Source: an uncultured Lachnospiraceae bacterium
GTDB lineage: Bacteria; Bacillota; Clostridia; Lachnospirales; Lachnospiraceae
DNA: 42,740 nt
Assembly (NCBI GenBank): GCA_949287925.1
Contig: CASEIR010000068.1
Coordinates: forward strand, 1-42,740
Reading direction: 5' to 3'
Shown piece by piece: positions 12,139-39,949 of the stretch. Below the pieces are notes generated by a model. The model ran no database searches, had not been told where the DNA came from, and saw only the letters and a program-made list of their open reading frames with translations. The position numbers and the translations under genes are program-made. The first letter of the stretch is position 1, and the number at the start of each line of letters is the position of its first letter.

Positions 12139-12173
12139 ATAATTTATAATCAAAATAAATCAGGGGAAGACAT

Positions 12174-13157: not shown

Positions 13158-13182
13158 ATCAGGCTGCCGGCCCGACAGTCAG

Positions 13183-13203
13183 TAAACTGTCCTGGACAGT
13201 TTA
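13183..13203 (+). repeat. Inverted repeat between fabH and acpP
   Basis: TAAACTGTCC and GGACAGTTTA are perfect 10-base arms around a single T. In RNA this gives an 8-bp stem with loop CCTGG. No T tract follows, so it is not a plain terminator. It could be an RNase processing or mRNA stability site that lets acpP mRNA reach a different level from fabH. Confidence 0.6.
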
Positions 13204-13255
13204 TGAATATATTTAAGAAAATTAAGAAAAAGAGAGAATGAAAAGGAGAAAAAAG

Positions 13256-13483: not shown

Positions 13484-13557
13484 TCAGGATCCGGTAAGTA
13501 ATAGGGAAAGAAACTGTAAGTATTGATTATTTAGAAAGAAAAAGCGGGGTTTGAACT

Positions 13558-16152: not shown

Positions 16153-16182
16153 CAGAGGGCGCAGATAGAGGAGATAGATAGT

Positions 16183-17421: not shown

Positions 17422-17441
17422 TTACCCGGGAAGGGATTCGT

Positions 17442-17930: not shown

Positions 17931-17944
17931 TCAGGAGGGGCGTT

Positions 17945-18373
17945 ATGAATCATTTAGATATTAATCAGATCAAAGAGATCATTCCGCACCGTCATCCGTT
18001 CCTGCTCATTGATTATATTGAAGATTATGAGCCGGGACAGTATGCGGTAGGTTATAAATGTGTTTCTTACCGGGAAGAGTTCTTCGCCGGACACTTTCCG
18101 CAGGAGCCGGTAATGCCGGGAGTTCTGACGGTAGAAGCTCTGGCTCAGGTGGGCGCGGTCGCCATCCTCAGTATGGAAGCTAATAAAGGTAAGATCGCTT
18201 ATTTCGGCGGCATCAATAAATGTAAATTTAAAGGCAAGATCGTACCGGGAGACAAGGTGCGTCTGGAAACCAAGATCATCAAGCAGAAAGGCCCTGTCGG
18301 AGTCGGCGAGGCAATTGCCAGTGTGGACGGCAAGACAGTAGTCAGTGCAGAATTGACATTTATGATTGGATAG
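17945..18373 (+). CDS. fabZ: 3-hydroxyacyl-ACP dehydratase
   Basis: This 142-residue hot-dog-fold enzyme dehydrates 3-hydroxyacyl-ACP to trans-2-enoyl-ACP. The N-terminal 'IIPHRHPFLLID' and the active-site block 'FFAGHFPQEPVMPGVLTVEALAQVG' contain the catalytic H50 and E64. FabZ-type Glu, rather than the Asp of FabA, argues against isomerase activity. A CAGGAGGGG Shine-Dalgarno lies before the ATG. It sits between accB and accC, a common order in clostridia and streptococci. Confidence 0.96.
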   Translation: MNHLDINQIKEIIPHRHPFLLIDYIEDYEPGQYAVGYKCVSYREEFFAGHFPQEPVMPGVLTVEALAQVGAVAILSMEANKGKIAYFGGINKCKFKGKIVPGDKVRLETKIIKQKGPVGVGEAIASVDGKTVVSAELTFMIG

Positions 18374-18382
18374 GTGGGAAAC

Positions 18383-19717: not shown

Positions 19718-19730
19718 AAGGTGACGTCCT

Positions 19731-21431: not shown

Positions 21432-21443
21432 GAGAAAAGATTG

Positions 21444-22544
21444 ATGAATGCAGCGCCGTTAAAATTGGGGAATATAGAAGCAAAACTGCCGATTATCCAG
21501 GGAGGTATGGGAATCGGTATCAGTCTTGGCAATCTTGCCGGGGCTGTTGCAAAAGAGGGCGGAGTTGGAATTATATCCGCCGCCCAGATCGGTTTTCGTG
21601 AGCCGGACTTTGACCGGAACACGCTAGAAGCAAACTTAAGAGCCGTAAAAAAGGAGTATGACAAGGCCAGAGCCATTGCGCCGGATGGTGTGATTGGTTT
21701 TAACATCATGGTGGCCATGCGTCATTACGAAGAGTATGTACGCGCGGCCATCGACGCCGGAGCGGACATTATCATCTCAGGAGCCGGACTTCCCACGGAT
21801 CTTCCGAAGATTGCCGGAGATTCGGACGTGAAGCTGGCGCCCATTGTATCTACGGATAAATCGGCTAAGGTCATCCTGAAGTTCTGGGATAAAAAGTATC
21901 ACCGGGTTCCGGACCTGCTGGTGATCGAAGGACCAAAGGCCGGCGGACATCTGGGATTTACAAAAGACCAGCTGACGGAGTATACTGATGATATAGCAGT
22001 GAATCCGGCAGAAGATCCGAACCGTTATAGTCAGGCTTATGATAAAGAAGTAGCCAGGATTTTTGCTACGGTGAAAACTTATGAGGAAGCGTACGGTAAG
22101 AAGATTCCGGTAGCTATTGCTGGAGGAATTGAAAACCGGGAACAGGCGGAACATGCATTTTCTCTGGGGGCGGACGCTATTCAGGTGGCGACCCGGTTCG
22201 TGACTACAGAGGAGTGTGATGCGGATATCCGATACAAAGAAGCTTATCTGCATGCGAAAGAAGAGGATATCGTGATTGTAAAGAGTCCGGTGGGAATGCC
22301 GGGACGGGCTATTTTAAATTCCTTTATGAAAAAGGTAATGGCGGGAGAGAAGATTCCCCACAGCCCTTGTCATGGATGTCTTCATAAATGCAATCCGGCT
22401 GAGATTCCGTACTGTATTACGGATGCGCTGATTCATGCCGCTAAGGGCGAGACTGAAGATGCGCTGCTGTTCTGCGGAGCTTATGCATACCGTGCAGACC
22501 GGATCGAGACAGTCAGAGAAGTCATTGATTCACTGATAAGCTAA
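21444..22544 (+). CDS. FabK-like NAD(P)H-dependent flavin oxidoreductase
   Basis: This 366-residue TIM-barrel flavoprotein belongs to the FabK/nitronate monooxygenase superfamily ('KLPIIQGGMGIGISLGNLAGAVAKEGGVGIIS', 'GFNIMVAM', 'EGPKAGGHLGF', 'PVAIAGGIENREQAEHAFSLGADAIQVATRFV'). It is longer than the FabK of this operon and has a C-terminal cysteine motif, 'CHGCLHKCNP...PYC', not seen in the first copy. The role may be an alternative enoyl reductase, detoxification or another flavin reaction. Its place in the fatty acid operon, ten bases after accDA, argues for a lipid-linked role. The ATG at 21444 is preferred over a TTG at 21441, as AGGAG lies nine bases upstream. Confidence 0.85.
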   Translation: MNAAPLKLGNIEAKLPIIQGGMGIGISLGNLAGAVAKEGGVGIISAAQIGFREPDFDRNTLEANLRAVKKEYDKARAIAPDGVIGFNIMVAMRHYEEYVRAAIDAGADIIISGAGLPTDLPKIAGDSDVKLAPIVSTDKSAKVILKFWDKKYHRVPDLLVIEGPKAGGHLGFTKDQLTEYTDDIAVNPAEDPNRYSQAYDKEVARIFATVKTYEEAYGKKIPVAIAGGIENREQAEHAFSLGADAIQVATRFVTTEECDADIRYKEAYLHAKEEDIVIVKSPVGMPGRAILNSFMKKVMAGEKIPHSPCHGCLHKCNPAEIPYCITDALIHAAKGETEDALLFCGAYAYRADRIETVREVIDSLIS

Positions 22545-26762: not shown

Positions 26763-28055
26763 GTGAAACAGGATATGATTGTAATTCTTGACCTGGGTAG
26801 TACCGAAAATACCGTGCTGGCGCGGCAGATCCGTGATCTGGGCGTGTACAGCGAGATTCATCCCCACGATATTACCGTGGAGGAACTCAAGAAGCTGGAT
26901 AACGTAAAAGGAATCATCCTCAATGGAGGAGAAAACCGGATCGTTGACGGGGCGGCCGTGGAGATCCGGCCGGAGTTGTATGATCTGGAGTATCCCATGA
27001 TTTCCATTGATTATCCGTCATCCAAATGCGATACACAGCTGAAAGAACTGCCGGATGAGGCGGCGCTGAAACAGTTTGTGTTCGAGATCTGTAAGGCAGA
27101 AGCTAACTGGAACATGAAAAACTTTATCGAAGACCAGGTCGAGCTGATCCGCCGCCAGGTAGGAGACGGCAAAGTCCTGCTGGCACTGTCGGGAGGCGTG
27201 GATTCTTCCGTTGTGGCGGCTATGCTGATCAAAGCTATCGGCCAGCAGCTGGTATGCGTGCATGTTAACCACGGTCTGATGCGTAAAAATGAATCCGAGA
27301 GCGTGGTTCAGGTCTTCCGGGACCAGCTCCATGCAAACCTGATCTATGTGGACGCTTCCGAGCGTTTCCTGGGTAAGCTGGAAAATGTGGCGGATCCGGA
27401 GCAGAAACGCAAAATCATCGGCGGAGAATTCATCCGGGTGTTTGAAGAAGAGGCCCGAAAACTGGAAGGAATCGAATTCCTGGGCCAGGGAACTATTTAT
27501 CCGGACATTATTGAAAGCGGAACCAAGACTGCCAAGATGGTAAAATCCCATCACAACGTGGGCGGTCTGCCAGAGGATCTGCAGTTCAAACTGGTAGAAC
27601 CTCTGAAGCAGCTTTTCAAAGACGAGGTCCGCGCCTGCGGCGTGGAGCTGGGACTGCCCCACAGCATGGTTTACCGTCAGCCCTTCCCGGGACCGGGACT
27701 TGGGGTGCGCTGTCTTGGAGCCATTACCAGAGACCGTCTGGAGGCAGTACGGGAGTCGGATGCGATCCTCAGAGAAGAGTTCGAGAAAGCCGGACTGGAC
27801 AAGAAGGTATGGCAGTACTTTACGGTAGTGCCGGACTTCAAGTCGGTGGGCGTGAAGAACAACGCCAGAAGCTTTGATTACATGGTGATCATCCGGGCGA
27901 TCAATACGATCGACGCCATGAGCGCGACGATTGAGCGGATCGACTGGGATGTGCTGCAGAGGATTACAGAGCGGATTTTGGCGGAAGTGGAGAATGTAAA
28001 CCGGGTGTGCTATGATATGTCCCCGAAGCCGCCGGCGACGATTGAGTTCGAATAG
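26763..28055 (+). CDS. guaA: GMP synthase with a degenerate glutaminase domain
   Basis: GuaA makes GMP from XMP with ATP and ammonia. The C-terminal two thirds are intact: the PP-loop SGGVDSS (143-149), 'KRKIIGGEFIRVFEEEA', 'LGQGTIYPDIIESG', 'KSHHNVGGLPE' and the dimerisation domain ending 'YDMSPKPPATIEFE'. The N-terminal class I amidotransferase domain is only about 115 residues instead of about 205. It keeps the opening 'IVILDLGSTENTVLARQIRDLGVY' but lacks the GxCxG nucleophile loop and the HPE histidine/glutamate. At 430 residues it is about 90 shorter than usual, with no frameshift. It should depend on free ammonia or a separate glutaminase. It starts with GTG, with AGGAGAGG upstream. Confidence 0.92.
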   Translation: MKQDMIVILDLGSTENTVLARQIRDLGVYSEIHPHDITVEELKKLDNVKGIILNGGENRIVDGAAVEIRPELYDLEYPMISIDYPSSKCDTQLKELPDEAALKQFVFEICKAEANWNMKNFIEDQVELIRRQVGDGKVLLALSGGVDSSVVAAMLIKAIGQQLVCVHVNHGLMRKNESESVVQVFRDQLHANLIYVDASERFLGKLENVADPEQKRKIIGGEFIRVFEEEARKLEGIEFLGQGTIYPDIIESGTKTAKMVKSHHNVGGLPEDLQFKLVEPLKQLFKDEVRACGVELGLPHSMVYRQPFPGPGLGVRCLGAITRDRLEAVRESDAILREEFEKAGLDKKVWQYFTVVPDFKSVGVKNNARSFDYMVIIRAINTIDAMSATIERIDWDVLQRITERILAEVENVNRVCYDMSPKPPATIEFE

Positions 28056-28326: not shown

Positions 28327-28875
28327 ATGAAGAAAATCAGTTTGTTTATAGCGATGAGCCTTGACGGATATATCGCGGACAGTAAAGGCAGCGTTGACTG
28401 GATGGTCGGACAGGGAGAAGATGATAATATGGATTCCTATTTTGGATTTGTGAAAGATATAGACACTGTGATAATGGGGTGGAATACTTATCATCAAATT
28501 ATTACGGAGCTTTCGCCAAAAGAATGGGTTTATAGCGATTTTACAACCTATGTTGTAACGCACCGTAGAAAAACATCTTCTGATAAAATCCATTTTACCA
28601 ATAAGGATCCGGTTGAGCTTTTGAAAAAGCTACGCGAAGAAAGGGGAAAAGGCATTTGGATATGTGGCGGGGCCAATTTGATCCAACAGCTTGTCAAAGA
28701 AGATGCGATCGATTATTATCATATTACTGTCATTCCAACAATTTTGGGTTCAGGTATCCGGCTTTTTGAAAAGGCCGGACATGAGATCAAGCTGAGATTG
28801 CTCAAAACACAATCGCATAATGGGATGACAGATTTGATCTATGCAAAAAGATCGTATCTGGATCCGAGTACTTAA
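28327..28875 (+). CDS. Dihydrofolate reductase/RibD C-terminal family protein
   Basis: This 182-residue protein has the DHFR-like fold of the RibD C-terminal family: 'MKKISLFIAMSLDGYIADSKGSVDWM', 'DTVIMGWNTYHQI', 'TYVVTHR', 'KGIWICGGANLIQQLVKEDAIDYYHITVIPTILGSGIRLF'. Such stand-alone proteins (YyaP/YwjB type) are NADPH-binding reductases of unknown substrate, not the housekeeping folate enzyme. AGGGGGAATT precedes the ATG at 28327. It stands alone between the guaA terminator and the structured GC-rich element. Confidence 0.85.
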   Translation: MKKISLFIAMSLDGYIADSKGSVDWMVGQGEDDNMDSYFGFVKDIDTVIMGWNTYHQIITELSPKEWVYSDFTTYVVTHRRKTSSDKIHFTNKDPVELLKKLREERGKGIWICGGANLIQQLVKEDAIDYYHITVIPTILGSGIRLFEKAGHEIKLRLLKTQSHNGMTDLIYAKRSYLDPST

Positions 28876-28936
28876 ATAACTAAAGATATGTCGGGAAGCC
28901 GTGTGCTCTTTTAAGCGGGAGCAGGCGGCTTTTTGC

Positions 28937-29085
28937 GCGATACGCCGGTCGGGCGACCGCCGTGCTTGCACGGGCGGGCATCCTACGGGCAACGGTCATC
29001 GAGCGGCCGTGCCGCGAGATGAGCGAGGTATCGCAGTGATCGGATAGGAGAAGGAATCTCCCCCTATCCGATCGTTCTTGAGAAC
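28937..29085. other. GC-rich multi-hairpin element in a gene-free gap
   Basis: The 363-base gap 28876-29238 has no convincing gene. In its middle is a GC-rich block with nested pairing: GCGATAC (28937-28943) pairs with GTATCGC (29028-29034) and encloses CGGTCG-GG-CGACCG (28946-28959), CCGTGC-TT-GCACGG (28960-28973) and CGGC-CGT-GCCG (29004-29014). Next come GATCGGATAGG/CCTATCCGATC (29038-29073) and GTTCT-TG-AGAAC (29074-29085). This could be a structured RNA, a dispersed repeat, or a remnant of a mobile element. A minus-strand frame (28880-29137) reads as Arg/Ser/Ala-rich sequence and is probably spurious. Confidence 0.6.
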
Positions 29086-29097
29086 ACGGATGGCTTA

Positions 29098-29125
29098 TTG
29101 TTAATTTGTTTATTTCTGATATAAT
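29098..29125 (+). promoter_or_regulatory. Promoter of the nine-gene cluster
   Basis: TTGTTA (29098-29103), 16 bases, TATAAT (29120-29125), with an extended -10 TG one base before it. The transcript would carry about 105 bases of leader before the first gene, including a 16-codon open frame at 29156-29206 of doubtful meaning. Confidence 0.65.
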
Positions 29126-29238
29126 TATATTATTCAATCGACAAATTTAGATTTGATGCATGGGATGGGAAGCAGTATGGAGTACAGAAATGACGTAGCT
29201 GGATAGTTTTCGCTTTATAGAAACGCACTGGCTTTAGC

Positions 29239-30576
29239 ATGTTTGACTTTTTGGGGGATTTTATGCCGGCATTTATAATGATTTTGGGTGGTTTCTTTAT
29301 AGTTAATACAGGTATGTGGTTGATTCGTATAGGGTTGAGCTATGCTTATATATGTAAGGCTAAAGCGGTGGCTGCATCGGATATGCCGGATGATATAAAG
29401 ATAGTGATTCTCATTCCTGTATTGAATGAGGAAAAACGGATCCGGAGAACTATTGAGATGTGCAGCCGTATTGTCCAGGATCATGTGGAGATTGTTTTTG
29501 CCACATCTTCGAAGGAAAGGAAAAAGAGAGACAATACCATCGCGATCATCGATCAATACAGATCAAAATACTCCTGGATAAAAGCTTATAAATATGAAGG
29601 GGACGGCTATATGGCTCATCAGTTGAATTATGCGCTGAAAGCCTATTGTGAGGAGAACCCGGTGGATGGGCGTACCCTTTTTGCGGTTTACAATATTGAT
29701 TCTGTTATCACAAAGGCCACGCTTTTTTGGGTGGCCGAACAGTATTTGGCGCATGGCTGCGGACCGGTCATTTATCAGCAGTATGGTTATTATTGCAAAA
29801 ACTGGAAGGACTGCGAAGGACAGTTCTGGATCAATAAGGCTGTTTTATGGTCCAATATGCTTTGGCAAACACGGTGGAGTATCGGTTTTGAGATGGCCCA
29901 TGCTTTGATGGGACTGCTTTTTTGCAAAAAGAATATATGGTTTATGAATTACTGTATCGGTCATGGCCTGTTTTTTAACAAGATGGTTTATGATATGGTT
30001 GGCGGCTTTGAGGAGAAGTCATTAAATGAGGACGCGATTTTTGGGTTGAAGGCCTGTCTGAATAATATAAAGATTATCCCAGTGCCCTGGTTGGAACGGG
30101 CGGATTCGCCGGATAGTGTCTTTTCATTGTTCCGTCAGAAGATCACATGGATTTATGGACCGGGACAGGCATTTGAATATGGGAGATTCATAAAAGGGGA
30201 GAATAAGACCGGAAAGAGGGGAAAGGGACGATTACTTTGGCTATGTATGCAGCTATTTGAACATGCGATCCGATGGATATTGGTTCCTGTGATCGTTGCA
30301 GCGGCTATTGTAGGCAGCTTTTTTTGTTCGATTTCAGTCGGTATAGTCATAATTTGTTTGCTATTGTTTTATTTGGCCGGGTTAAATCTTTTAACAGTTT
30401 ATCTGTATGATAAAAATAACAATATGTCTTTTAAAGAAATGATCTATGTGATTCTGGGATGTATTCCCCAGTTCCTTTTGCATGGCCTATCCGGCTGGTG
30501 CGGCATTTTCCAGTTGTTGGGGAGATGGCTGTTTGGGAAAAAGATCATAAAAAGAAAGACGGAAATGAGAGCGTAA
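29239..30576 (+). CDS. Membrane GT2-type glycosyltransferase
   Basis: This 445-residue protein has a membrane segment at about 9-30, a cytoplasmic GT2 domain (about 52-320) and three further hydrophobic segments (about 340-425). The domain begins 'KIVILIPVLNEEKRIRRTIE', has 'AVYNIDS' where GT2 enzymes have their DxD, 'NEDAIFGLK' as the catalytic acidic block, and 'RQKITWIYGPGQ' late. The layout resembles processive or lipid-linked sugar transferases. It should act on the inner face of the membrane; donor and acceptor are unknown. The start is weak: 29239 has no clear ribosome site, while ATG 29263 has GGGGGA close by. It is the first gene of the cluster, one base before the methyltransferase gene. 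Confidence 0.8.
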   Translation: MFDFLGDFMPAFIMILGGFFIVNTGMWLIRIGLSYAYICKAKAVAASDMPDDIKIVILIPVLNEEKRIRRTIEMCSRIVQDHVEIVFATSSKERKKRDNTIAIIDQYRSKYSWIKAYKYEGDGYMAHQLNYALKAYCEENPVDGRTLFAVYNIDSVITKATLFWVAEQYLAHGCGPVIYQQYGYYCKNWKDCEGQFWINKAVLWSNMLWQTRWSIGFEMAHALMGLLFCKKNIWFMNYCIGHGLFFNKMVYDMVGGFEEKSLNEDAIFGLKACLNNIKIIPVPWLERADSPDSVFSLFRQKITWIYGPGQAFEYGRFIKGENKTGKRGKGRLLWLCMQLFEHAIRWILVPVIVAAAIVGSFFCSISVGIVIICLLLFYLAGLNLLTVYLYDKNNNMSFKEMIYVILGCIPQFLLHGLSGWCGIFQLLGRWLFGKKIIKRKTEMRA

Positions 30577-30577
30577 G

Positions 30578-31699
30578 ATGTATCAGCTTTTAGATTTTAA
30601 TGTGGACTATCTGGCATTGCAAAAAGCGCCTGTGTATCTGGTAGGAACCGGAAAAGAGGCAGTGAAAGCGTATAAAAGGATATTCATCCGGGCTATCCAG
30701 CTGGGACGGATGTTTCGTATGGCAGGCGTATATACTCTGGATCAGGAGTGGTTTGGGAAAAACTATTGTTCCGCCTTTGTTCGGGATCTAAAGGCGGGAA
30801 AAGATCCAGAGGGGATCTATTTGGTTGCTGAGAATGATTATCATAAAGCAAAAAAGATGATCGACCTGTTGAATGAGAGCGGTATAGGACAGATCATCGT
30901 GACCCTTCCGACACTGCAGTTCCCCTTGAAACGGGAAGAATTTGAGAAAAACCGAAAATTGTTTTTTGAAAACAGGGAAAAGATCCAATATGTTTATGAA
31001 CGGGTAGATGATAAGTCCAAGAAAATATGGGAGAAACTTTTAAGAGCGCGATGGGATCCGGAAAGTGATCAGGCGCTGCTTTACCGTGATGCATTGGATT
31101 TATCCATGGAAACGGGCAGCAGGCAGTATTTTCCTGAGGGAGAGATTTTCAAACAGCCGGAAAAAGAGGGGGTTTTCATAGATGGGGGCGCTTTAAGCGG
31201 ATCTTCTGCCATTGGATTTGCCCGGTGGTGTGGGAAAGATTACGGCAAGATTTATTCTTTTGAGCCAGACACTAGATACCATGATCTTCTGGAGACGAAT
31301 ATTCGATGTCACCGTATGGAGCGGGTAAAGATCATGGATGCAGCCTTGTATGATTATACAGGCGTGGCTGATTTTTCGGCAGAACCCATCGGATCTTCAA
31401 AAGTTGGACAGGGAGAAGGGAAAGTACCTGTAGTCTCTATTGACGATCTGTTTCTGACCAAAAGGGACCGTGTTGCCTATATCAAGATGGACATTGAAGG
31501 TTCTGAATGCAAAGCCTTGGATGGAGCGAAACAGATCATCCAACGGGATCGGCCAAAATTGGCTATATGTATCTATCATGGAGAAGAAGATATTTTTCAA
31601 GTGCCCTATAAGATCATGAGTGAATTGGGATATACCCGGATCCATATCCGGCATTACTCGGATACGGTTGGGGAAAGTGTGGTTTATGCAGTGAGGTGA
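30578..31699 (+). CDS. FkbM family methyltransferase with N-terminal Rossmann-like domain
   Basis: This 373-residue protein has two parts. Residues about 15-115 look like a nucleotide-binding fold ('APVYLVGTGKEAVKAYKRI', 'IGQIIVTLP'), as in sugar-sensing domains of glycan enzymes. Residues about 195-373 are an FkbM SAM-dependent O-methyltransferase: 'VFIDGGALSGSSAIGFA', FEPD (228-231), 'VPVVSIDDLF' and 'YIKMDIEGSE' (301-310). FkbM enzymes methylate hydroxyls on sugars and polyketides. Its start follows the upstream stop by one base, and its own stop overlaps the ribosome site of the next glycosyltransferase gene. Confidence 0.85.
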   Translation: MYQLLDFNVDYLALQKAPVYLVGTGKEAVKAYKRIFIRAIQLGRMFRMAGVYTLDQEWFGKNYCSAFVRDLKAGKDPEGIYLVAENDYHKAKKMIDLLNESGIGQIIVTLPTLQFPLKREEFEKNRKLFFENREKIQYVYERVDDKSKKIWEKLLRARWDPESDQALLYRDALDLSMETGSRQYFPEGEIFKQPEKEGVFIDGGALSGSSAIGFARWCGKDYGKIYSFEPDTRYHDLLETNIRCHRMERVKIMDAALYDYTGVADFSAEPIGSSKVGQGEGKVPVVSIDDLFLTKRDRVAYIKMDIEGSECKALDGAKQIIQRDRPKLAICIYHGEEDIFQVPYKIMSELGYTRIHIRHYSDTVGESVVYAVR

Positions 31700-31704
31700 G
31701 AAGG

Positions 31705-32766
31705 ATGGGTAAGGCAAAGGTTTCGGCGATCATATCTTTTTATAATTCGGAGCAATACGCGGAGAAATGTTTAAGATCTGTCATGGATCAGACGTTAAAG
31801 GAATTGGAAATTATCGTGATTGACGATGGTTCCACGGACAGGACAAGACGGATCGTGGAGGAGACGGCAAAGGATGATCCCCGAGTTGTGTATGTGGCGA
31901 AGGTCAATGGAGGTCTGGCTTCCAGCCGGAAACAGGGGATGGCTTTGGCGACAGGGGAGTATATCACCTTTGTAGACGGGGACGATCATATTCAAAAAAA
32001 TATGTATAACAGCATGTACGAGAAAGCAAAGCAGGAGAATCTGGATATCGTTCAGTGCAATATCATTCCCACGGGAGATCCGGACAAATGGAAAGAGACT
32101 GAGCGTGACCGGAAATATCCGGAAAGGGTGATGACCGGCAAAGATCTTCTGGATCTGTATTTAAAAAGGGAAGTCATGCCTGCGCTTTGGCAAAGGCTGT
32201 TTCGCAATGGGTTGTGGACTGCAGGTCAATTTAAGGATTTTTCCAAAATCATGTCGGATCATTTCAATTTTCCAGAGTGGGCCGTGCGCGCAAAAAGGGT
32301 TGCTTTTTTAAACGAGCCCTATTACTATTGGTTGACCAGAAAAGGCAGTCTGGGACAGCCAGAGGGGAAAAGACATGGGGTGGATGCCAGAAATCGGTTT
32401 TTGTCAGGCATATCTATATTGGCTTTCAGCGGTATGGGAACTATGAAGGATCATGATCTGATATATAGATATCTGATGAGTTATATTACCCAGGCTGTGT
32501 TTCATTTGAGGGAGAATGACTATCAGGACGTGGATATACTGTTTGAATCCTGGGATGGTGTAAAAAAATATGGACCTTTTTATGAGAATGCGATGAGACT
32601 GTATCCCCAATATGCAGGGAGTGTATTTTTTTACTATCTTGAAAATGACAGGAAGAGATTTCGCGCTTATATAAGAGGTGAGTTTTGGAAAGACATGGCA
32701 ATGTTTATCAAAGAAACCCATTATAACGGTGATGACCTGTTTAGAGGAATGACAGAAGATGTTTAA
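31705..32766 (+). CDS. GT2 glycosyltransferase (cytoplasmic)
   Basis: This 353-residue protein has an N-terminal GT-A domain of family 2: 'KVSAIISFYNSEQYAEKCLRSVMDQTLKELEIIVIDDGSTDRT', 'GGLASSRKQGMALATGEYITFVDGDD' with the metal-binding DGDD at 91-94. The C-terminal 150 residues are helical and not recognised, and no membrane segment is seen. It should add one sugar to an acceptor. GAGGTG lies six bases before the ATG at 31705. It overlaps the radical SAM gene by eight bases. Confidence 0.9.
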   Translation: MGKAKVSAIISFYNSEQYAEKCLRSVMDQTLKELEIIVIDDGSTDRTRRIVEETAKDDPRVVYVAKVNGGLASSRKQGMALATGEYITFVDGDDHIQKNMYNSMYEKAKQENLDIVQCNIIPTGDPDKWKETERDRKYPERVMTGKDLLDLYLKREVMPALWQRLFRNGLWTAGQFKDFSKIMSDHFNFPEWAVRAKRVAFLNEPYYYWLTRKGSLGQPEGKRHGVDARNRFLSGISILAFSGMGTMKDHDLIYRYLMSYITQAVFHLRENDYQDVDILFESWDGVKKYGPFYENAMRLYPQYAGSVFFYYLENDRKRFRAYIRGEFWKDMAMFIKETHYNGDDLFRGMTEDV

Positions 32767-34348
32767 ATTTATTTTTTACAGAACTTTAAATTCCCAGTCG
32801 GCTGTTTCCGTCACCGTAGCCAATCTGTGCGGCCTGCTGAAAAGCCGTGGGTATGATGCGGCTATGGCGCTGCTTGAGAAAAAAGATCCGGATATCGCTT
32901 CAAAAATCTGTGAAAATAGGGAGCGGCATCCCATTCTGATCTATAAAGTCAATTCCATGGATTACGAAAAAACTTTCCCGGTACTTTCCAGGCTGGCAAA
33001 GGAGAAGGCATTTGCCAGAATATATCTGATCGGACCTTTTGCCAGCTTAAATGGGGAGCGTATCATGATGCAATATCCCTGGGTGGATGGGGTGATCTTA
33101 GGCACCGGAGAGTATACAATCCTGGAATTGGCAAAGATATGGGAAAAGACAGAAGATTTTGAAGGAGATATCTTTGCGGAAGGCGGAATATGGCGTACAG
33201 CCGCCGGCGGATTTAAACGAAAAGAAATCATCCACCGACTTTCTCTGAAAGAATTGCCTTGCCCATCCAGGGATATCGACAGGATGCAGGAAGAGAAAAT
33301 TACTAATCTGGAGTTTTCCAGAGGATGTGAAAACCTGTGCCGGTACTGTCATATGCGCGCTTATCACGAGCAGTATGGTTTAGATCGGGAGTGCAGAACG
33401 GTGGATCAAGTCATGGAAGATATAGAATATCTGTATGCTATGGGAAAACGGTATTTCGTGTTCAACGACAGCGTTTTTTGGAATGATGACAGGGATACGC
33501 CCCGTCTGATGGAATGGTGTCGGCGCATGAAAGCTTCCAGAATGAAAATATCTTTTATGATCTATTTGTCATTGTATCATTTTCCACCCATGTTCCTGAT
33601 CAAACAGTTAAAGGAAGTGGGACTGATCCGGGTATTTATCGGTGTGGAAAGTTTTGACCCTGAAGTACTCAAAGTTCTCAAAGAATCCGCATATCCCTCT
33701 TTTAAACTGGAAACGATCCGGGAAAAACTGGGGGAACTGTATATCAGCTGTCATATCGGATATATCGTATTTTTTCCTTTTTCCACTTTGGAACAGGTGG
33801 AAAAGAGCATCGAGTATTTAAATTCCATGGAAAAGATGTTTCGGGTGGGCATTATGTTGGAACGGTTACGGTTGATCCCCCATACTCCCATGGAAGTGTA
33901 TATGGAAAGAAGCGAAGATATGCTGGATGGGGCATATGCTTATAAGATGGTCGATGAACGGGCAGAGAAGCTTCAGACTCAGTGGATGGACATTTTTGAA
34001 GTTCAGCTGCGCGCTTCTTATATCAAAATGGAGCTTTTATGCACAGCCGGCGATCTGGCGCTGTCAATCCTGATGCGGGACAGGGATCAGATTCCGGAAG
34101 ATGTGCGGACTGTTTTAGATCAGCATAGGAAAAACATAAAAACTTATAATCGGCGGATCTATCGTTTTGTCCGGGAATCTATCGGACATGCACGTCAAGG
34201 GAGGCCGATCTGCCTGACGGAAATTTTTGAAAATGACTATTGGAATTCCATGGAAAGTTTGCAAAACAGCTGGCAAAAGCTTTACAGGATCATGTCCGCG
34301 TATACAGAGTTTGATCTGGAAAAAATGATCCCTACAGGAGATGCGTAA
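32759..34348 (+). CDS. B12-binding-type radical SAM enzyme
   Basis: This 529-residue enzyme has an N-terminal cobalamin-binding-like domain (about 1-165; 'LLKSRGYDAAMAL', 'IYLIGPFASLNGERIMMQYPWVDGVILGTGEYTILELAK') and a radical SAM barrel with the [4Fe-4S] motif C190-x3-C194-x2-C197 ('SRGCENLCRYCH'). Further radical SAM blocks are 'KRYFVFNDSVFWND' and 'IRVFIGVESFDPEVLKVL'. The usual DxHxxG base-off B12 motif is not seen, so cobalamin use is uncertain. Relatives do C-methylations and rearrangements on sugars, lipids and peptides. The C-terminal 150 residues are helical. It overlaps the upstream GT2 gene by eight bases and the next radical SAM gene starts one base after it. Confidence 0.87.
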   Translation: MFKFIFYRTLNSQSAVSVTVANLCGLLKSRGYDAAMALLEKKDPDIASKICENRERHPILIYKVNSMDYEKTFPVLSRLAKEKAFARIYLIGPFASLNGERIMMQYPWVDGVILGTGEYTILELAKIWEKTEDFEGDIFAEGGIWRTAAGGFKRKEIIHRLSLKELPCPSRDIDRMQEEKITNLEFSRGCENLCRYCHMRAYHEQYGLDRECRTVDQVMEDIEYLYAMGKRYFVFNDSVFWNDDRDTPRLMEWCRRMKASRMKISFMIYLSLYHFPPMFLIKQLKEVGLIRVFIGVESFDPEVLKVLKESAYPSFKLETIREKLGELYISCHIGYIVFFPFSTLEQVEKSIEYLNSMEKMFRVGIMLERLRLIPHTPMEVYMERSEDMLDGAYAYKMVDERAEKLQTQWMDIFEVQLRASYIKMELLCTAGDLALSILMRDRDQIPEDVRTVLDQHRKNIKTYNRRIYRFVRESIGHARQGRPICLTEIFENDYWNSMESLQNSWQKLYRIMSAYTEFDLEKMIPTGDA

Positions 34349-34349
34349 G

Positions 34350-35234
34350 ATGTTAAAAAGACCTGTGGCATATGAAATACAGACGACAAATCGATGCAAT
34401 GGCGGTTGTCTGGTCTGCCCCCATAGAAATATAGAGCAGAAGTATCAGTCCATGGATCGTCTGCTTTTTAAAAAGATCGTGGATGAGATTGCCGTCAGCA
34501 AGGAACCGGTCAGGATCGTGTTATATTTAAACGGAGAACCTTTTTTGGACGAATATTTCCCGTGGCGGCTCCAATATACTCGGGAGACATGTCCTCATGC
34601 CCTCATAGAAGTATCTACAAATCTTTCGTTTCTGAGCGAAGATATCCTGGAGGCTATAAAACAATGGGATATCGATGATTTTAGGATCAGCTGTTTCGGA
34701 TTATCCAAAGAAACCTATGAACAGATCATGCAAGGGCTAAAGTATGAAACCTTTCAAACGAATTTGGAGAAATTGTTGGTATTCCGCAAACGTTACGCTC
34801 AACTCAGAAATGTATCGTTGACTGTGCTGGATTTACCGGAATTACAGGCGGGAGAGAGGGAACTGGCTAGACGGTTTTGTCAGGAAAATCATATGACTTT
34901 AAATTTTTGGGGTTATCTGGATCGGGCAGGCAATGTGAAATATCATTCGAACCATGTGAGCGTTACCGCAGAAGAAGAGGAAAAGAAGGTGTATACCTGC
35001 GCTCAGAACAGACATATGGAACGGATGCACATCCTGGTTGACGGGACGGTCATACTGTGCTGTCAAGATTGGCGGCGGGAAAATGTGTTGGGATCAGTGG
35101 AAACGGACTCTTTACATGATATATGGGCGGGCAAGTCCTATGAAAAGGTCCGGCGGCAGATCGATCAACCGGGCTATCCCTATCCTGAACTTTGCAAAAA
35201 ATGTAAAATCTTATTGGAGGGGAAAAGACAGTGA
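34350..35234 (+). CDS. Radical SAM enzyme with SPASM-type C terminus
   Basis: This 294-residue enzyme has the radical SAM motif C16-x3-C20-x2-C23 ('TTNRCNGGCLVCPH') and a C-terminal cysteine cluster ('YTCAQNRHMERMHILVDGTVILCCQDW', then 'LCKKCK') typical of SPASM or twitch domains that bind extra Fe-S clusters. Family members modify RiPP peptides or oxidise aminocyclitols and sugars (BtrN type). No precursor peptide is evident nearby, so a sugar substrate is more likely. ATG 34350 follows AGGAG by nine bases and is preferred over ATG 34341. Its stop overlaps the GTG start of the next gene. Confidence 0.87.
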   Translation: MLKRPVAYEIQTTNRCNGGCLVCPHRNIEQKYQSMDRLLFKKIVDEIAVSKEPVRIVLYLNGEPFLDEYFPWRLQYTRETCPHALIEVSTNLSFLSEDILEAIKQWDIDDFRISCFGLSKETYEQIMQGLKYETFQTNLEKLLVFRKRYAQLRNVSLTVLDLPELQAGERELARRFCQENHMTLNFWGYLDRAGNVKYHSNHVSVTAEEEEKKVYTCAQNRHMERMHILVDGTVILCCQDWRRENVLGSVETDSLHDIWAGKSYEKVRRQIDQPGYPYPELCKKCKILLEGKRQ

Positions 35235-35923
35235 TCCTTTCGTTTGACGGGAATACTTATTTGGGAAAGACCAGTGTGATACATGCTTTAAAAAAGCGTT
35301 TTCCGGAGAGTGTGGTCCGGGAAGAATACGATACGGATCCGGGCTTTCTGGAGGGACGGACCCATCTGGAAAAGCAGAAATACTATTTTGATCTGGAAAG
35401 GAAAAGACAAGTAGAAGAGGGAGAGAAAAGGCTTGTTTTACTGGATCGGTCTTATCTGTCCATACTGGCTCATTCCTATGCTGTCAGCCGGATCGAAAGG
35501 AAAAACCGGCTGGGAGAAACGGTGGGGCTTTTGAAGCTGCAAAGAGGGAAAGGATGGATCATCCGGCAGCAGGCAGCGGTATTTTTCATCCAGCCGACAG
35601 GGGATGGCGTTTACAGCGATATTGACCAAAAGGGCGGAGAGGCGATTCTTTATAACAGACAGTATCGAAGCTATATTGATGATTTTTACCTGGAAATCCT
35701 CCGTATGCTTTCCAAAGAGGCCATATCCGATCAGCGGTGTTTAAACAGGATATATTTGTGGAAAGAAAGTCGCGACCGGTCATTGGAAAGACTGATCAGA
35801 TGGATGGAAAGATACAGATATTCTGAAAAGATATCGGATGCCTGTGAAGGAGAAGATCTGTTTCCTGTTTTTTTGTCTGCTGTGGAAAAGATTTTATATA
35901 AAGTGGGTAAACAATATGATTAA
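35231..35923 (+). CDS. Thymidylate-kinase-like P-loop protein
   Basis: This 230-residue protein has a Walker A motif near the start ('SFDGNTYLGKTSVIHAL') and 'LVLLDRSYLSILAHSY', matching the DR(x)2S block of thymidylate-kinase-like NTPases. 'RKRQVEEGEKR' precedes it. It may phosphorylate a nucleotide, sugar or the product of this cluster; it lacks the length and features of a housekeeping Tmk. GTG is the start codon, with GGAGGGG eight bases upstream, and it overlaps the previous stop (GTGA), which implies coupled translation. Confidence 0.75.
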   Translation: MILSFDGNTYLGKTSVIHALKKRFPESVVREEYDTDPGFLEGRTHLEKQKYYFDLERKRQVEEGEKRLVLLDRSYLSILAHSYAVSRIERKNRLGETVGLLKLQRGKGWIIRQQAAVFFIQPTGDGVYSDIDQKGGEAILYNRQYRSYIDDFYLEILRMLSKEAISDQRCLNRIYLWKESRDRSLERLIRWMERYRYSEKISDACEGEDLFPVFLSAVEKILYKVGKQYD

Positions 35924-37268
35924 TAAATTACTGCCGTATTACGGTGTGATCATGAAAAAGACGGATGTTCATTCTTATCCTGCATACCGGCTTAGTGACG
36001 GCTTTTCTTTTGTGCCCTATACACCCGGTCGGGAATACGAGTGGTGTCAGATTCAGACAAGGGCCGGTATGACAGAAAATGTCCGAAAAGCAAGAGAAAT
36101 ATTTGAACAAAAGTTTAAGCCTTATACGGAATTATTGACAGAACACTGTATATTTATCGTAGATGACGCAGATCGCGCTGTGGCATCGGCTGCCCTTTGG
36201 CCTGGGAAACATTTTGGGACAGAACATTGGCGGATACATTGGGTGGCGGTGGATCCGGATTATCAGGGGATGGGCATGGGCAAAGCCCTGATGACCTGCC
36301 TGATGGATATCTTTAACTCGGAAGATCATGGAAAATGGCTTTATGTGACAAGCCAGTCCTGGAATTACTGCGCTATCAATATTTACTATCATTTTGGTTT
36401 CCGACCTTATCTTGGAGTGCAGCCGGTGAACTGGTACAGTGAAGATTTTGACCGCTGCAATCAGAAAGGATGGGCATTGATCGACCAGTGGATACATACC
36501 TATGATCATGAAAGTCCGGACATGCTTTGTCTGGGAGAGTGGCGGATCCATGTATCCGGAGACAGATCAGTGATGACGGAACTGAAAAAAATCTTTCCGA
36601 TGACGGAAAAGGATGAGAAAAGATCAGATGGTAAACTGGCGTTTTATTCTGATCAGGATCAGAAAATAACTTATGACGGGAAAGAAATGGACGTTTTTTT
36701 GCATGAAGAAAATCTCCATGACAGGCATATACTTCGGGATATCGGATGGTTTTACTATCATGTTAAAGCGGCTCAAAACGGAAGGATACTGGTCGGAAAG
36801 GACTGCTGTGAAATTGAAGACGGGACAGACGGCGGTATCTGGCTGATATTTTTGCGAAAAGGAAAATACAGGGAATATGATCCGTGTGTGGGCACAGAAG
36901 GGTTGGAACAGTTCTGGGAGATCTTTTTTCAAAACGGCAACTATTATATCCGGGATATCCAGTTTCGTGTATGCCATCGGATCGAGTCGATAAAGTGGCA
37001 TGTATTGAGACGGCAGAAAACACGGAAAACCCCTGTCAGCTGGCAGTCTTTTCAAAACCGGATGCTATCCATGGCCGAACAGGTTATCGCAGCACAGATG
37101 CCTTTGATGGACGGAGGAGAGCTGATATGCCATTTCCCGTATGTGGACAATGAAAATATGGCGAAAAAGAGAAACCGGTTGCTGGAAGGTTTGTTCGAAC
37201 ATATGAAGCCTGAGGAGCTGACAGGAGAGTTGTATCGGGGAGAAGAGGATGCAGAAGATTGTTTTTGA
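35916..37268 (+). CDS. GNAT acetyltransferase fused to an unknown domain
   Basis: This protein of about 450 residues begins with a GNAT domain (about 20-170): 'HIFIVDDADRAVASAALWPG'-like core strands, 'RIHWVAVDPDYQGMGMGKALM' with acetyl-CoA loop QGMGMGKA (117-124), and 'SWNYCAINIYYHFGFRPY'. The remaining 280 residues match nothing I know; they carry 'GWFYYHVKAAQNGRILVGKDCCEIEDG' and 'GGIWLIFLRKGK', which look faintly like the HPr-kinase-like fold of the next gene but without a P-loop. GNAT plus the DegT gene suggests N-acylation of an amino sugar. ATG 35916 overlaps the previous gene; ATG 35952 is another possible start. Confidence 0.75.
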   Translation: MINKLLPYYGVIMKKTDVHSYPAYRLSDGFSFVPYTPGREYEWCQIQTRAGMTENVRKAREIFEQKFKPYTELLTEHCIFIVDDADRAVASAALWPGKHFGTEHWRIHWVAVDPDYQGMGMGKALMTCLMDIFNSEDHGKWLYVTSQSWNYCAINIYYHFGFRPYLGVQPVNWYSEDFDRCNQKGWALIDQWIHTYDHESPDMLCLGEWRIHVSGDRSVMTELKKIFPMTEKDEKRSDGKLAFYSDQDQKITYDGKEMDVFLHEENLHDRHILRDIGWFYYHVKAAQNGRILVGKDCCEIEDGTDGGIWLIFLRKGKYREYDPCVGTEGLEQFWEIFFQNGNYYIRDIQFRVCHRIESIKWHVLRRQKTRKTPVSWQSFQNRMLSMAEQVIAAQMPLMDGGELICHFPYVDNENMAKKRNRLLEGLFEHMKPEELTGELYRGEEDAEDCF

Positions 37269-38211
37269 ATGGAACGGTTTTTGCTGTGTATGCCACTGTG
37301 ACGTACATTCTGAGAAAGTACGGGACATGCTCAGACAGCCAATAGAACTGTTAGGGAAGGGATTTGCAGTACCCCAAAAAGAAATCCCCAATGGGGGGAT
37401 CGTATGTGTCCGTGATCTGATGATAAAAGAAGAGAAAGGAGCGGCTCTTTCGATGGACTGGAGGACCATCGTTTTAAGGGCATCGGAAAAGAATCTGCTA
37501 AAGACAGAGATGATCGCCTGCCTGCTTTTACAAATCTTTCTTGTGGAAGGGTTGAAACAAGGTATTTTAGCTTTCCATGGTTCGGCGGTACACGTAGATG
37601 ATAAAAATATAGTTCTGTTGGGGGAATCAGGAGCAGGAAAAACAACCGTTGCTTTTGCGTTATGCGAGGATAAAGGCGGGAAACTAATCAGCAATGATTT
37701 TATAGCATTAAGATGGCAAGACCCACGATTGAAAATAGTGTGGGATGATGGGACATCCAAAATGTCATTACGAAAAGACGTGTTTTCTTCTTATTCAGAG
37801 AAGAAGCATTCTAAAGACAGGTTTTTGGGCAGTGAAAATAGAAATTACTATGATCTGAAACAGTTAAATATCCAGACATACGAATCTAAAGATTTTATTG
37901 ATGAGATTTGGTGGATCGAATTGTCGGAGACTGGCGAAAACCATACTCGGATGCCGGATTTTCGGGAAAATATGCAAAGACTGTATTTAAACGCAATGGG
38001 TCTGATCACAGGCATTCATCTGAAACTATATGATCATCAGGGAAACTGGGTCGCCAATTGTCCTTATCCGCTTGAGCCGGAAGAGTTAAAAAGGGTTGAC
38101 GATCATCTGACAAGGGTAATACATAAGTTTGGATGCAAAGAGCTGAGAGGAGATCTGCCGTTTGTCTTGACAGCCCTTTGCCCGGAAAAAGGAAAGGAGA
38201 CAGCAGGATGA
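37249..38211 (+). CDS. HPr-kinase-like P-loop protein
   Basis: This 320-residue protein has in its middle 'GILAFHGSAVHVDDKNIVLLGESGAGKTTVAFALCEDKGGKLISNDFIAL'-type sequence, with Walker A GESGAGKT at 125-132 and D150 in 'SND'. This is the HPr kinase/phosphorylase C-terminal fold. The real HPrK N-terminal domain and signature are missing, so it is not the carbon-catabolite kinase. Relatives sit in RiPP and glycan clusters, where some phosphorylate a serine of the product. The C-terminal 130 residues are unrecognised. GGGGAGAAGAGG precedes the ATG, which overlaps the upstream gene by 20 bases; its stop overlaps the aminotransferase start (ATGA). Confidence 0.8.
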   Translation: MQKIVFEWNGFCCVCHCDVHSEKVRDMLRQPIELLGKGFAVPQKEIPNGGIVCVRDLMIKEEKGAALSMDWRTIVLRASEKNLLKTEMIACLLLQIFLVEGLKQGILAFHGSAVHVDDKNIVLLGESGAGKTTVAFALCEDKGGKLISNDFIALRWQDPRLKIVWDDGTSKMSLRKDVFSSYSEKKHSKDRFLGSENRNYYDLKQLNIQTYESKDFIDEIWWIELSETGENHTRMPDFRENMQRLYLNAMGLITGIHLKLYDHQGNWVANCPYPLEPEELKRVDDHLTRVIHKFGCKELRGDLPFVLTALCPEKGKETAG

Positions 38212-39335
38212 TCCCATTAAACAGACCGACTCGGACCGGGAAAGAGATCGATTATATCCGTCAGGCTATTGAGAGCGGCAGCTTGCAGGGAGGCGGGCGT
38301 TTTACTCAAAAATGCATGGAATGGATGGAAAAGAAATTTTCAGCTTCTAAGGTGCTGCTCACCTCCAGCGGGACGGCAGCCCTGGATATGGCAGCGTATT
38401 TATGTTCTATACAGCCTGGGGATGAGGTGATTTTGCCAAGTTTTACATTTTCAAGCACAGCAGTAGCGTTTGCGCGTGTGGGAGCGAAACTGGTCTTTGT
38501 GGATATCTGTCCGGAAACGATGAACTGCGATGCAGATGCGATTGAAAAGGCGCTGACGGTGAAAACAAAAGTCATTGTTGTCATGCACTATGCCGGCGTG
38601 GCCTGTGATATGGAGAAAGTAATGTGTCTTGCAAAAGACAGAGGTATCCTGATCGTGGAAGATGCGGCTCATGGATTTATGAGTACCTATAAAGGCAGAT
38701 ATCTGGGAACGATCGGCCACTTCGGCTGCTATTCTTTTCATGATACAAAAAATTACACAATGGGAGAAGGCGGAGCCCTTGTTATCAATGACCGGAATTT
38801 TATTGAACGAGCGGAGATCCTTTGGGAAAAGGGAACAAATCGTTCCAAGTTTATCCGGGGAATGGTGGATAAATATACATGGGTTGATATGGGAGACAGT
38901 TATCTGCCATCGGAGCTAAATGCGGCCTTCTTAATACCCCAGTTGGAAAAAGCGGATCTGATTTTTAGAGATCGTCTGGAAAGCTGGGATCGGTATTTTG
39001 ATCGATTAAAGGAGCTGATGCTGCGCGGAGACATACAGTTGCCCTCTATTCCGGAAGATTGCGGGCATAATGCGCACATTTTTTATATCAAAACAGGAAC
39101 TTGCGAACATAGGGATCGATTGATGGACTTCCTGAAGGCCAAGGGTATCTGCACGGCCTTTCATTACCTGCCTCTTCACAAATCACCGGCGGGATTGAAA
39201 TATGGCCGTTTTGCCGGAGAAGATCATTTTACATCTTTTGAAAGTGAAAGGTTGCTCCGGCTTCCGATCTATTATGGGATGGAGAGTAAAACTATCGACT
39301 ATATCGTAAAGGCCATTTTTCAATTTTACGGATAG
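38208..39335 (+). CDS. DegT/WecE-type sugar aminotransferase
   Basis: This 375-residue PLP enzyme has the WecE/RffA-like active site 'CYSFHDTKNYTMGEGGALVIND' with lysine K181 and the cofactor aspartate D152 in 'IVEDAAHG'. WecE transfers an amino group from glutamate to a nucleotide 4-keto-6-deoxyhexose, giving dTDP-4-amino-4,6-dideoxygalactose. The motif match makes a 4-amino-4,6-dideoxysugar plausible here, but no rmlA/rmlB-type gene is in the window. The ATG at 38208 overlaps the previous stop (ATGA) and has AAAGGAG upstream. It is the last gene of the cluster. Confidence 0.9.
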   Translation: MIPLNRPTRTGKEIDYIRQAIESGSLQGGGRFTQKCMEWMEKKFSASKVLLTSSGTAALDMAAYLCSIQPGDEVILPSFTFSSTAVAFARVGAKLVFVDICPETMNCDADAIEKALTVKTKVIVVMHYAGVACDMEKVMCLAKDRGILIVEDAAHGFMSTYKGRYLGTIGHFGCYSFHDTKNYTMGEGGALVINDRNFIERAEILWEKGTNRSKFIRGMVDKYTWVDMGDSYLPSELNAAFLIPQLEKADLIFRDRLESWDRYFDRLKELMLRGDIQLPSIPEDCGHNAHIFYIKTGTCEHRDRLMDFLKAKGICTAFHYLPLHKSPAGLKYGRFAGEDHFTSFESERLLRLPIYYGMESKTIDYIVKAIFQFYG

Positions 39336-39347
39336 ATAAACAGTTGA

Positions 39348-39375
39348 TAGACAAAGCGATTACTCTTGCTAGAAT
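39348..39375 (+). promoter_or_regulatory. Promoter of the Nudix gene
   Basis: TAGACA (39348-39353), 16 bases, TAGAAT (39370-39375) with an extended TG at 39367-39368. It directly precedes the tandem repeat at 39375-39390. Confidence 0.5.
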
Positions 39376-39390
39376 AGTACCATAGTACCA
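39375..39390 (+). repeat. Tandem TAGTACCA repeat
   Basis: TAGTACCA occurs twice in a row, starting at the last base of the proposed -10, so it would span the transcription start. It could be a regulator site or a small duplication. Confidence 0.5.
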
Positions 39391-39438
39391 AAGATAAATA
39401 TAAAAAAATACCGTAAATAAAGCAGGGAGGATATGAAG

Positions 39439-39891
39439 ATGCTGGAAGTACAATTTTATGATACTGTGGACGATGCGTTATTAAAATTTGCGGTTATTAT
39501 TTCACAGAGTCATGGTAAATGGGTGTTTTGCAAGCACAAGGAACGGGATACATATGAAGTACCGGGAGGCCATCGTGAACCAGGTGAAGATATTATAGAA
39601 ACTGCGAAGCGTGAACTCCAGGAAGAAACAGGCGCTGTCCGGTTTGAACTTAAGCCAGTATGTGTTTATTCGGTGACTGGAAAGAATCGTGTCAATGAGA
39701 GCGGCGAGGAAACATTTGGATTATTGTGCTTTGCGGAAATAATGGAGTTTTCGGATCAGTTGGACAGTGAGATGGAAAAGATAGTACTCATGGATAAACT
39801 GCCTGAAAACTGGACATATCCATTGATACAGCCCCGATTGATAGAAAGATATCTTCAAATAGAAAATCCATCTTGCTCTGCCAATAGCTGA
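39439..39891 (+). CDS. Nudix hydrolase
   Basis: This 150-residue hydrolase has the complete Nudix box at about 44-66 ('GGHREPGEDIIETAKRELQEETGA', fitting Gx5Ex7REUxEExGU), which cleaves nucleoside diphosphates linked to another group, such as oxidised nucleotides or nucleotide sugars. AGGGAGG lies eight bases before the ATG at 39439; an ATG at 39433 is too near this site. It has its own promoter, so it may not belong to the glycan cluster. The substrate is unknown. Confidence 0.88.
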   Translation: MLEVQFYDTVDDALLKFAVIISQSHGKWVFCKHKERDTYEVPGGHREPGEDIIETAKRELQEETGAVRFELKPVCVYSVTGKNRVNESGEETFGLLCFAEIMEFSDQLDSEMEKIVLMDKLPENWTYPLIQPRLIERYLQIENPSCSANS

Positions 39892-39949
39892 TTTGCGCAA
39901 TTTGTGAATACCCGTTAATTTTTTTGCATTTTCATTAACAGCCCTTCAG

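Follow-up and report, generated by a model that had tools for sequence, protein, structure and literature searches.

A contig of an uncultured Lachnospiraceae bacterium (CASEIR010000068.1, assembly GCA_949287925.1), which we analyzed over its whole length of 42,740 nucleotides (hereafter the window), carries on its forward (+) strand nine coupled genes at positions 29239–39335, here numbered g1 to g9. We tentatively read them, with a confidence a little short of even, as a single-operon cluster for a small amino-deoxysugar glycoconjugate assembled at the membrane, of which we infer every reaction, the order of the steps and the product. The set is an orphan within the searches made, a pair of its genes, g1 and g5, is shared with a Vibrio plasmid, and g5 and g9 are homologous to the radical S-adenosylmethionine (SAM) enzyme BtrN and to the transaminase WecE, respectively.

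All nine genes are complete open reading frames (ORFs) without internal stops, and the junctions from g1/g2 to g8/g9, taken with the preferred starts, are +1, −4, −8, −8, −4, −8, −20 and −4 bases, so that a 1-base gap and overlaps of 4–20 bases bear out the coupling on one strand that a preliminary description, made from the sequence alone, had claimed. Those starts include ATG 35916 for g7 and ATG 38208 for g9, each the most likely one, in place of the ORF-list starts 35838 and 38133; the start of g1 is unsure, no Shine-Dalgarno-like stretch being seen 5′ of ATG 29239. The GC content is 0.439 in the cluster versus 0.474 in the whole window. Pfam and NCBIfam agree with most of the families named in the preliminary description (two GT2 glycosyltransferases, FkbM, a radical SAM protein, a radical SAM protein of the SPASM type, GNAT and WecE), while its title listed eight proteins and left out the ninth, a P-loop, kinase-like protein at 35231–35923.

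Amino-sugar chemistry is indicated by g9 (38208–39335), a WecE of the dTDP-4-amino-4,6-dideoxygalactose transaminase type, which scores 571 and 556 bits against two curated NCBIfam models with cut-offs of 375 and 435 bits, and matches PDB entry 4piw at E 1.6e-140. The radical SAM protein g5 (34341–35234) has BtrN as its only strong PDB match (E 2e-13), with two aligned regions, one in the radical SAM core and the other, at g5 231–289, in the auxiliary part. Its core CxxxCxxC cysteines, Cys 19, 23 and 26, are kept in 37/37 aligned rows of g5-like proteins, and Cys 220, 240, 285 and 288 in 37/37, 34/37, 37/37 and 37/37 rows; because of the conservation of these last four, the auxiliary Fe-S site looks like one cluster. 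The BtrN-type SPASM enzyme of the preliminary description thus stands as regards the BtrN alignment and is corrected as regards the auxiliary site. Every NCBIfam match of g5 lies below its cut-off, the nearest being the short SPASM domain model (19.7 vs 27 bits) and the others far below.

The second radical SAM protein, g4 (32759–34348; Pfam Radical_SAM 50.2 bits, CxxxCxxC at residues 190–197), weakly resembles many B12-type families in Pfam and NCBIfam. Its N-terminus does not match PF02310 at 0.001 but scores 51.7 bits against a profile of the N-terminal domains of nine relatives, the best of 999 shuffles reaching 5.5 bits, and so appears related to B12-type N-terminal domains; the Pfam B12-binding domain itself is seen in three of those nine relatives (L080, L162 and L074) and not in g4. 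The sole PDB match of g4 up to 0.01 is AprD4 (apramycin biosynthetic oxidoreductase 4; E 0.0054), and its chemistry could be either C-methylation or an AprD4-like deoxygenation. With WecE over its cut-off, the alignment of g5 with BtrN and the apparently B12-type N-terminus of g4, amino-sugar glycoconjugate chemistry is the best reading of the cluster, as it was in the preliminary description, whose interpretation overall is partly supported.

The remaining genes encode two glycosyltransferases, a methyltransferase, an acyltransferase and two P-loop proteins. The membrane-type GT2 glycosyltransferase g1 (29239–30576) matches Pfam Glyco_trans_2_3 at 42.1 bits (cut-off 27) and has hydrophobic segments at residues 4–22 and 361–379, for which reason we place it at the membrane; g3 (31696–32766) is a GT2 glycosyltransferase as well (Pfam Glycos_transf_2, 122 bits). 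Between them, g2 (30578–31699) is an FkbM-type methyltransferase (TIGR01444, 81.3 vs 37.7 bits, residues 199–330) with an N-terminal extension of ~195 residues. A GNAT acyltransferase domain occupies approximately residues 1–197 of g7 (35916–37268; Pfam Acetyltransf_1, 49.9 bits), which resembles the WecD-type NCBIfam model weakly (21.4 vs 219 bits); its C-terminal half has no known relative, and nothing in the PDB matched it significantly (best E 0.77). The protein encoded by g6 (35231–35923) carries the Walker A motif GNTYLGKT and is probably a small-molecule kinase; no Pfam or NCBIfam model matched it at 0.001, a PDB search gave nothing significant, and its predicted model is too poor for use (mean predicted local distance difference test score 39.9). 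For g8 (37249–38211), which had been called HPrK-like, the Walker A motif GESGAGKT is present, while the matches to HPr kinase/phosphatase models stay below the curated cut-offs (Pfam 23.2 vs 33.3 bits, NCBIfam 20.1 vs 240 bits).

In the pathway that we propose, g9 would put an amino group on a keto-sugar to give a 4-amino-4,6-dideoxysugar nucleotide, as is known for its family, and g7 would N-acylate the amino sugar. The ring could then be tailored by g5, which may oxidise or invert a ring carbon as BtrN does, by g4, which would C-methylate or deoxygenate, and by g2, which would O-methylate; g6 and g8 may phosphorylate an intermediate. Finally, g3 and the membrane GT2 g1 would move the sugars to an acceptor that is probably lipid-linked. 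The conserved heart of such a system would be g1 together with g5 and the P-loop gene that directly follows it, and the other genes would be tailoring genes.

The proposal of a conserved heart comes from a plasmid of Vibrio halioticoli. In a plasmid collection, matches to g1 were found in 3 records and to g5 in 25, and the best relative of both was in the same record, AP024877.1: 36.8% identity and 1e-46 for g1 (next best record 23.8%, 1e-15), 35.1% and 4e-40 for g5 (next best E 4e-15, among the best 12 of the 25 records). Pairwise alignment gave 37% identity for g1 and 38% for g5, with homology over nearly the full length. The two Vibrio genes lie on the same strand ~0.5 kb apart with a P-loop protein between them, so that a P-loop gene stands directly 3′ of the radical SAM gene in both the nine-gene cluster and the Vibrio run. 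The run also contains genes for an SDR-like protein, a 474-residue protein that looks nucleotidyltransferase-like by eye, two permease-like proteins and an ABC ATPase, the exporter-like genes standing behind the pair; AP024877.1 is unannotated, and these names were given by eye except where phmmer matched (the relatives of g1 and g5, and the ATPase to ABC proteins). The genes upstream of the run look by eye like Tn7-type transposition genes. In a tree of 43 g5-like proteins the nearest row to g5 is the Vibrio protein, in a group that also takes in a single viral-contig row (support 92/90). An E. coli search with 3.5 kb of the Vibrio run and a phage search with the Vibrio GT2 both gave no match.

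A g1-like GT2 on a Gloeothece plasmid likewise lies beside ABC-2 exporter genes, which match the Vibrio ones (3e-67, 2.2e-15 and 1.1e-6). Since exporter-like genes of this type adjoin the g1 relatives in both Vibrio and Gloeothece, the analogy suggests that the product of the cluster leaves the cytoplasm. On a Nocardia plasmid (L244) a gene annotated 'AAA family ATPase' stands directly 5′ of a g1-like glycosyltransferase, and a g5-like protein is encoded ~300 kb away in a seven-gene run. The kinds of genes in that run are common to Streptomyces and Nocardia plasmids and follow the same order (L245 7683–14159 and L246 7656–14121): radical SAM, radical SAM or hypothetical, creatininase, arylsulfotransferase, glycosyltransferase, methyltransferase and ATP-binding/AAA protein.

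Beyond the plasmids, the nine genes differ widely in how often relatives are met. The genome scan, which used exact-peptide patterns and detects close relatives only, found 79 loci with a WecE relative 45–60% identical to g9, the closest mostly in records titled Clostridiales, Mogibacterium and similar; with g4 it matched 4 stretches and no relative. Among the 79 WecE loci, 25 of which are shorter than 15 kb, phmmer at E 1e-3 found a g3-like GT2 in 23, a g2-like FkbM protein in 2 and a g4-like protein in 1, and no match to g1, g5, g6, g7 or g8 in any. In genomes of the bacterial family, the source genome always included, g4 had matches in 168/250 (E ≤ 0.001; the best other by E-value 27% identical), most of which look like generic B12-type radical SAM proteins, g8 in 41/250, mostly over 50–100 residues around the P-loop, and g7 in 17/250; the g7 matches listed in other genomes all fall within residues 1–197, leaving its C-terminal half without a relative there. 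For g5 there were matches in 33 of 98 relatives (E ≤ 0.001) and in 57 of 397 family genomes (E ≤ 1e-8), both counts again with the source genome. Only 2/250 genomes matched g6, and the second of them (G130, E 7.8e-4) was taken as chance, its ORF crossing a slightly longer ORF on the opposite strand. Plasmid searches with g8 and g6 gave no match. Scans of a viral collection matched 1 stretch with g4 and 53 with g1 and its Vibrio relative, none of them a relative, and 70 stretches with g5 and its Vibrio relative, 4 of them relatives with 25–34% identity over their best segment. Viral contig IMGVR_UViG_3300009034_000013 (L247 9878–10798) encodes a radical SAM protein of the g5-like kind with 25% identity.

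No known cluster with these nine genes turned up, in line with the preliminary description, which knew no pathway with this set, and no paper on such a cluster was found, judging by titles and the opening parts of abstracts, in the open-licence literature, which is without most subscription journals, so that this says little. Sugar clusters with radical SAM enzymes are already known; this gene combination and the pair of g1 and g5 were, within the reach of our searches, not described.

Several results weigh against the glycoconjugate reading. No second genome with the full nine-gene set was met in the searches made. No flippase, polymerase or ABC exporter was found among the nine genes or ten nearby ORFs scanned, and no nucleotide-sugar supply gene in the cluster, neither RmlA nor RmlB by Pfam; the preliminary description had already noted that the cluster holds no flippase, polymerase, exporter or nucleotide-sugar synthesis gene and no precursor peptide, and none of the last was recognised by eye. 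The whole source genome, moreover, has no RmlB over the cut-off (best 109.3 vs 365.1 bits), and 10 of 14 control genomes pass that cut-off. An RmlB-like gene occurs in 32 of the 54 WecE loci of 15 kb or more, and in 40/79 of all. The assembly, in which the window makes up the whole of contig C68, measures 2.2 Mb and is 83.6% complete and 6.4% contaminated, and because about a sixth of the genome is therefore missing, the absence of RmlB is not decisive. The Vibrio parallel is narrow as well: the 29-kb Vibrio stretch has no significant match to g2, g3, g4, g7, g8 or g9, g6 shows no detectable relation to the Vibrio P-loop protein (E 1.9), and no well-supported group in the tree of 43 g5-like proteins contains g5. 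The best NCBIfam match of g5 is a tungsten-cofactor maturase model (69.7 vs 380 bits), so that a sugar substrate for it is putative. We also considered whether WecE and a g5-type radical SAM protein are inherited together: next to g5 itself, the three highest-ranking g5-like matches (G430, G134 and G018) each have a close WecE within ~1.6 kb, but in both trees the WecE-linked g5-like proteins fall in another clade, so the pairing is not inherited.

Of the other readings, the one that survives best is that the nine genes form an ordinary surface-glycan decoration island, which puts a rare sugar onto a capsule, a teichoic-type polymer or a surface protein while the polymer and export genes lie elsewhere; we regard this as a serious possibility that is nevertheless on the doubtful side. 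It draws on the genes found around g5-like genes in the bacterial family and order. We inspected 29 such loci of up to 19.5 kb, 9 from the list of 98 relatives and 20 from that of 397 genomes, which are among the best hits and not all of them. A glycosyltransferase gene was present in 13/29 and at least two kinds of glycan genes in 16/29, counts that include by construction two loci (L071 and L073) that supplied query labels. For comparison, loci centred on g7 had a glycosyltransferase in 0/8 and two glycan kinds in 0/8, and those centred on g8 or g6 in 2/8 and 0/8, respectively; in the first tree, the group of g5 had a glycosyltransferase in 6 of 9 other loci, L073 among them. Four loci (L071, L073, L074 and L222) hold glycosyltransferase and sugar genes by Pfam, and another contig of the same genome (C78) has a further stretch with sugar-nucleotide and glycosyltransferase-like genes, named by eye. 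Against a decoration island speak the absence of flippase, polymerase and exporter genes from the nine and the position of the closest g1 and g5 relatives near ABC-2 exporter-like genes, where no Wzx/Wzy set was seen.

The missing RmlB is the main hint for a different route to the amino sugar, one that would bypass the classical dehydratase. Acting like BtrN on a sugar that is nucleotide-bound or has already been glycosylated, g5 would dehydrogenate one of the ring hydroxyls by radical chemistry. The resulting ketone would be transaminated by g9, as a WecE that was taken over from the classical pathway, and g4 would then methylate or deoxygenate. We consider this route unlikely. If it were true, the genes would, with the membrane GT2 g1, amount to a transferable 'radical amino-sugar' cassette, seen so far here and, as a core of g1 and g5, on the Vibrio plasmid, and the product would be a new class of glycoconjugate.

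A cluster for a ribosomally synthesized and post-translationally modified peptide (RiPP), with a ribosomal peptide as the substrate that HPrK-like and SPASM-type proteins modify and the GT2s glycosylate, seems very unlikely to us. Several of the weak NCBIfam matches of g5 are maturases, and in one family genome (L186) an HPrK-like gene shares its run with radical SAM and PqqD-like genes and with what look by eye like ABC transporter genes; the nine genes, on the other hand, include no PqqD-like protein by Pfam or NCBIfam, the small ORFs of the gaps at the 5′ and 3′ ends are by eye unlike precursors, and g5 has no strong PDB match besides BtrN. We rejected a RiPP or mycofactocin-like cluster because the nine include neither a PqqD-like nor a creatininase-type protein and no precursor was recognised. 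As an observation in its own right, an HPrK-like gene stands near a radical SAM gene in two family genomes (L186 8704–11295 and L188 7125–9416), and in L186 its neighbours further include a PqqD gene, a gene for a 125-residue protein without a Pfam family and what looks by eye like an ABC transporter gene, so that the group resembles a RiPP cassette.

We find it hardly probable that the nine genes came together by chance or only transiently, without one product, in an incomplete and partly contaminated assembly. The failure to find the full set elsewhere in the searches made speaks for this, and the preliminary description had named a lack of co-occurrence, which the searches partly bear out, as what would refute its reading. 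All nine genes are nevertheless tightly coupled and free of internal stops, g1 with g5 and comparable enzyme mixes recur, and the recurrence of subsets of the genes, on the Vibrio plasmid and in L074, argues against a random assemblage. A defence island was dismissed, PADLOC having given two weak matches only (g4 1.2e-5, g8 8.5e-4).

The extended −10 promoter of the preliminary description corresponds to a promoter-like site at 29098–29125 on the + strand (TTGTTA-16-TATAAT with TG before the −10, 10/12 matches). It is one of three sites scoring 10 among 28 promoter-like sites in 28850–39900, and since shuffled sequences gave 22.8 (standard deviation 5.2), such sites are mostly chance; as the promoter of the cluster it is plausible. 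Between it and g1 a nine-codon mini-ORF (29177–29206, ATG to TAG) was seen by eye, possibly encoding a leader peptide. The stretch at 28925–29090, between the RibD-like gene and the promoter, is GC-rich and by eye palindrome-rich, and is single in the genome except for a 46-base, 80% match on contig C15.

The nearest flanking genes are of unrelated kinds, RibD/DHFR-like and GMP synthase genes upstream and NUDIX and HTH-TPR genes downstream. No insertion at an empty site could be demonstrated, since the flanks mostly have no clear orthologue in two genomes of the same genus (G001 and G002): the HTH-TPR gene has matches of 31% and 28%, the ferredoxin-type gene short matches only, and the sole clear orthologue is a GMP synthase of 77% identity on an 8.2-kb contig of G002. 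The GMP-synthase-like gene itself (26763–28055, 430 residues) has a GATase part covering only positions 1–78 of the 190 of the Pfam model, and G002 has, besides the 77% relative, a longer one at 56%; judged from the sequence, the gene is possibly a second, reduced GuaA. Further upstream, 12174–22541 holds ordinary fatty-acid synthesis genes in one direction (acyl carrier protein synthase III, NMO/FabK-like, acyltransferase, ketoacyl synthase, biotin carboxylase and carboxyltransferase).

The recurrence of the g1 and g5 pair near exporter-like genes in Vibrio is a pointer to sugar biosynthesis clusters of a kind that has been little explored. The two to nine genes would be a compact set for studying radical oxidation of sugars, transamination by WecE and glycosylation at the membrane side by side, and g1 with g5 offers a search handle for further clusters of this kind.

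Among known systems, WecE acts in the enterobacterial common antigen route, which the cluster resembles in that g9 passes both curated WecE models and g7 has a GNAT domain; it differs in that the nine genes include no RmlA or RmlB, no RmlB over the cut-off is found in the genome, and the other genes are different. It is chiefly in the biosynthesis of antibiotics that radical SAM enzymes with sugar or aminocyclitol substrates are known. One of them is BtrN of butirosin biosynthesis (PDB 4m7s and 4m7t), which g5 matches both in the core and in the auxiliary part, while no aminocyclitol pathway was recognised in the nine-gene cluster. The radical SAM enzyme DesII is reported to deaminate TDP-4-amino-4,6-dideoxy-D-glucose (PMC11434129), so a radical SAM enzyme can use a nucleotide-bound 4-amino-4,6-dideoxysugar such as WecE makes; the PDB searches with g4 and g5 gave no DesII entry, and the analogy is one of logic only.

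Four loci are comparable enzyme mixes and not orthologous runs. In a family genome (G167, L080), radical SAM and B12-type radical SAM genes lie with a glycosyltransferase gene, two ABC genes, DegT and others, and on a Solidesulfovibrio plasmid (L193) three radical SAM genes lie in a nonulosonate-type locus. The L080 stretch (1–19499) runs in one direction and also has an ORF of >1,700 codons and SHMT/fluorothreonine-transaldolase-like, thioesterase, ROK and dehydroquinase-like genes; judged by these genes, it may be an undescribed natural-product cluster. A run in Syntrophaceae UBA6255 (L162) unites a methyltransferase, a GT2, SPASM-type and B12-type radical SAM proteins and WecE. At E 1e-3 there is no match between g5 and the SPASM-type protein of this run; the run also has aldehyde dehydrogenase and ATP-grasp genes, and nothing in it matches g6–g8. 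The deoxysugar locus of an order-mate (G060, L074) has, like the cluster, DegT, B12-type and SPASM-type radical SAM (three of them g5-like), FkbM and GT2 genes in one direction; it differs by its own nucleoside triphosphate (NTP) transferase, SDR, RmlC-like and GT4 genes, by a DegT far from g9 (1.8e-26), and by the lack of a match to g6, g7 or g8. The run of the Vibrio halioticoli plasmid pIAM14596 (AP024877.1, L241 11555–19153) shares only g1 and g5 with the cluster by homology and differs in its SDR-like, nucleotidyltransferase-like and ABC-2 exporter-like genes, names given partly by eye; like the cluster, it is a co-directional arrangement of a GT2, a BtrN-like radical SAM protein and a P-loop gene.

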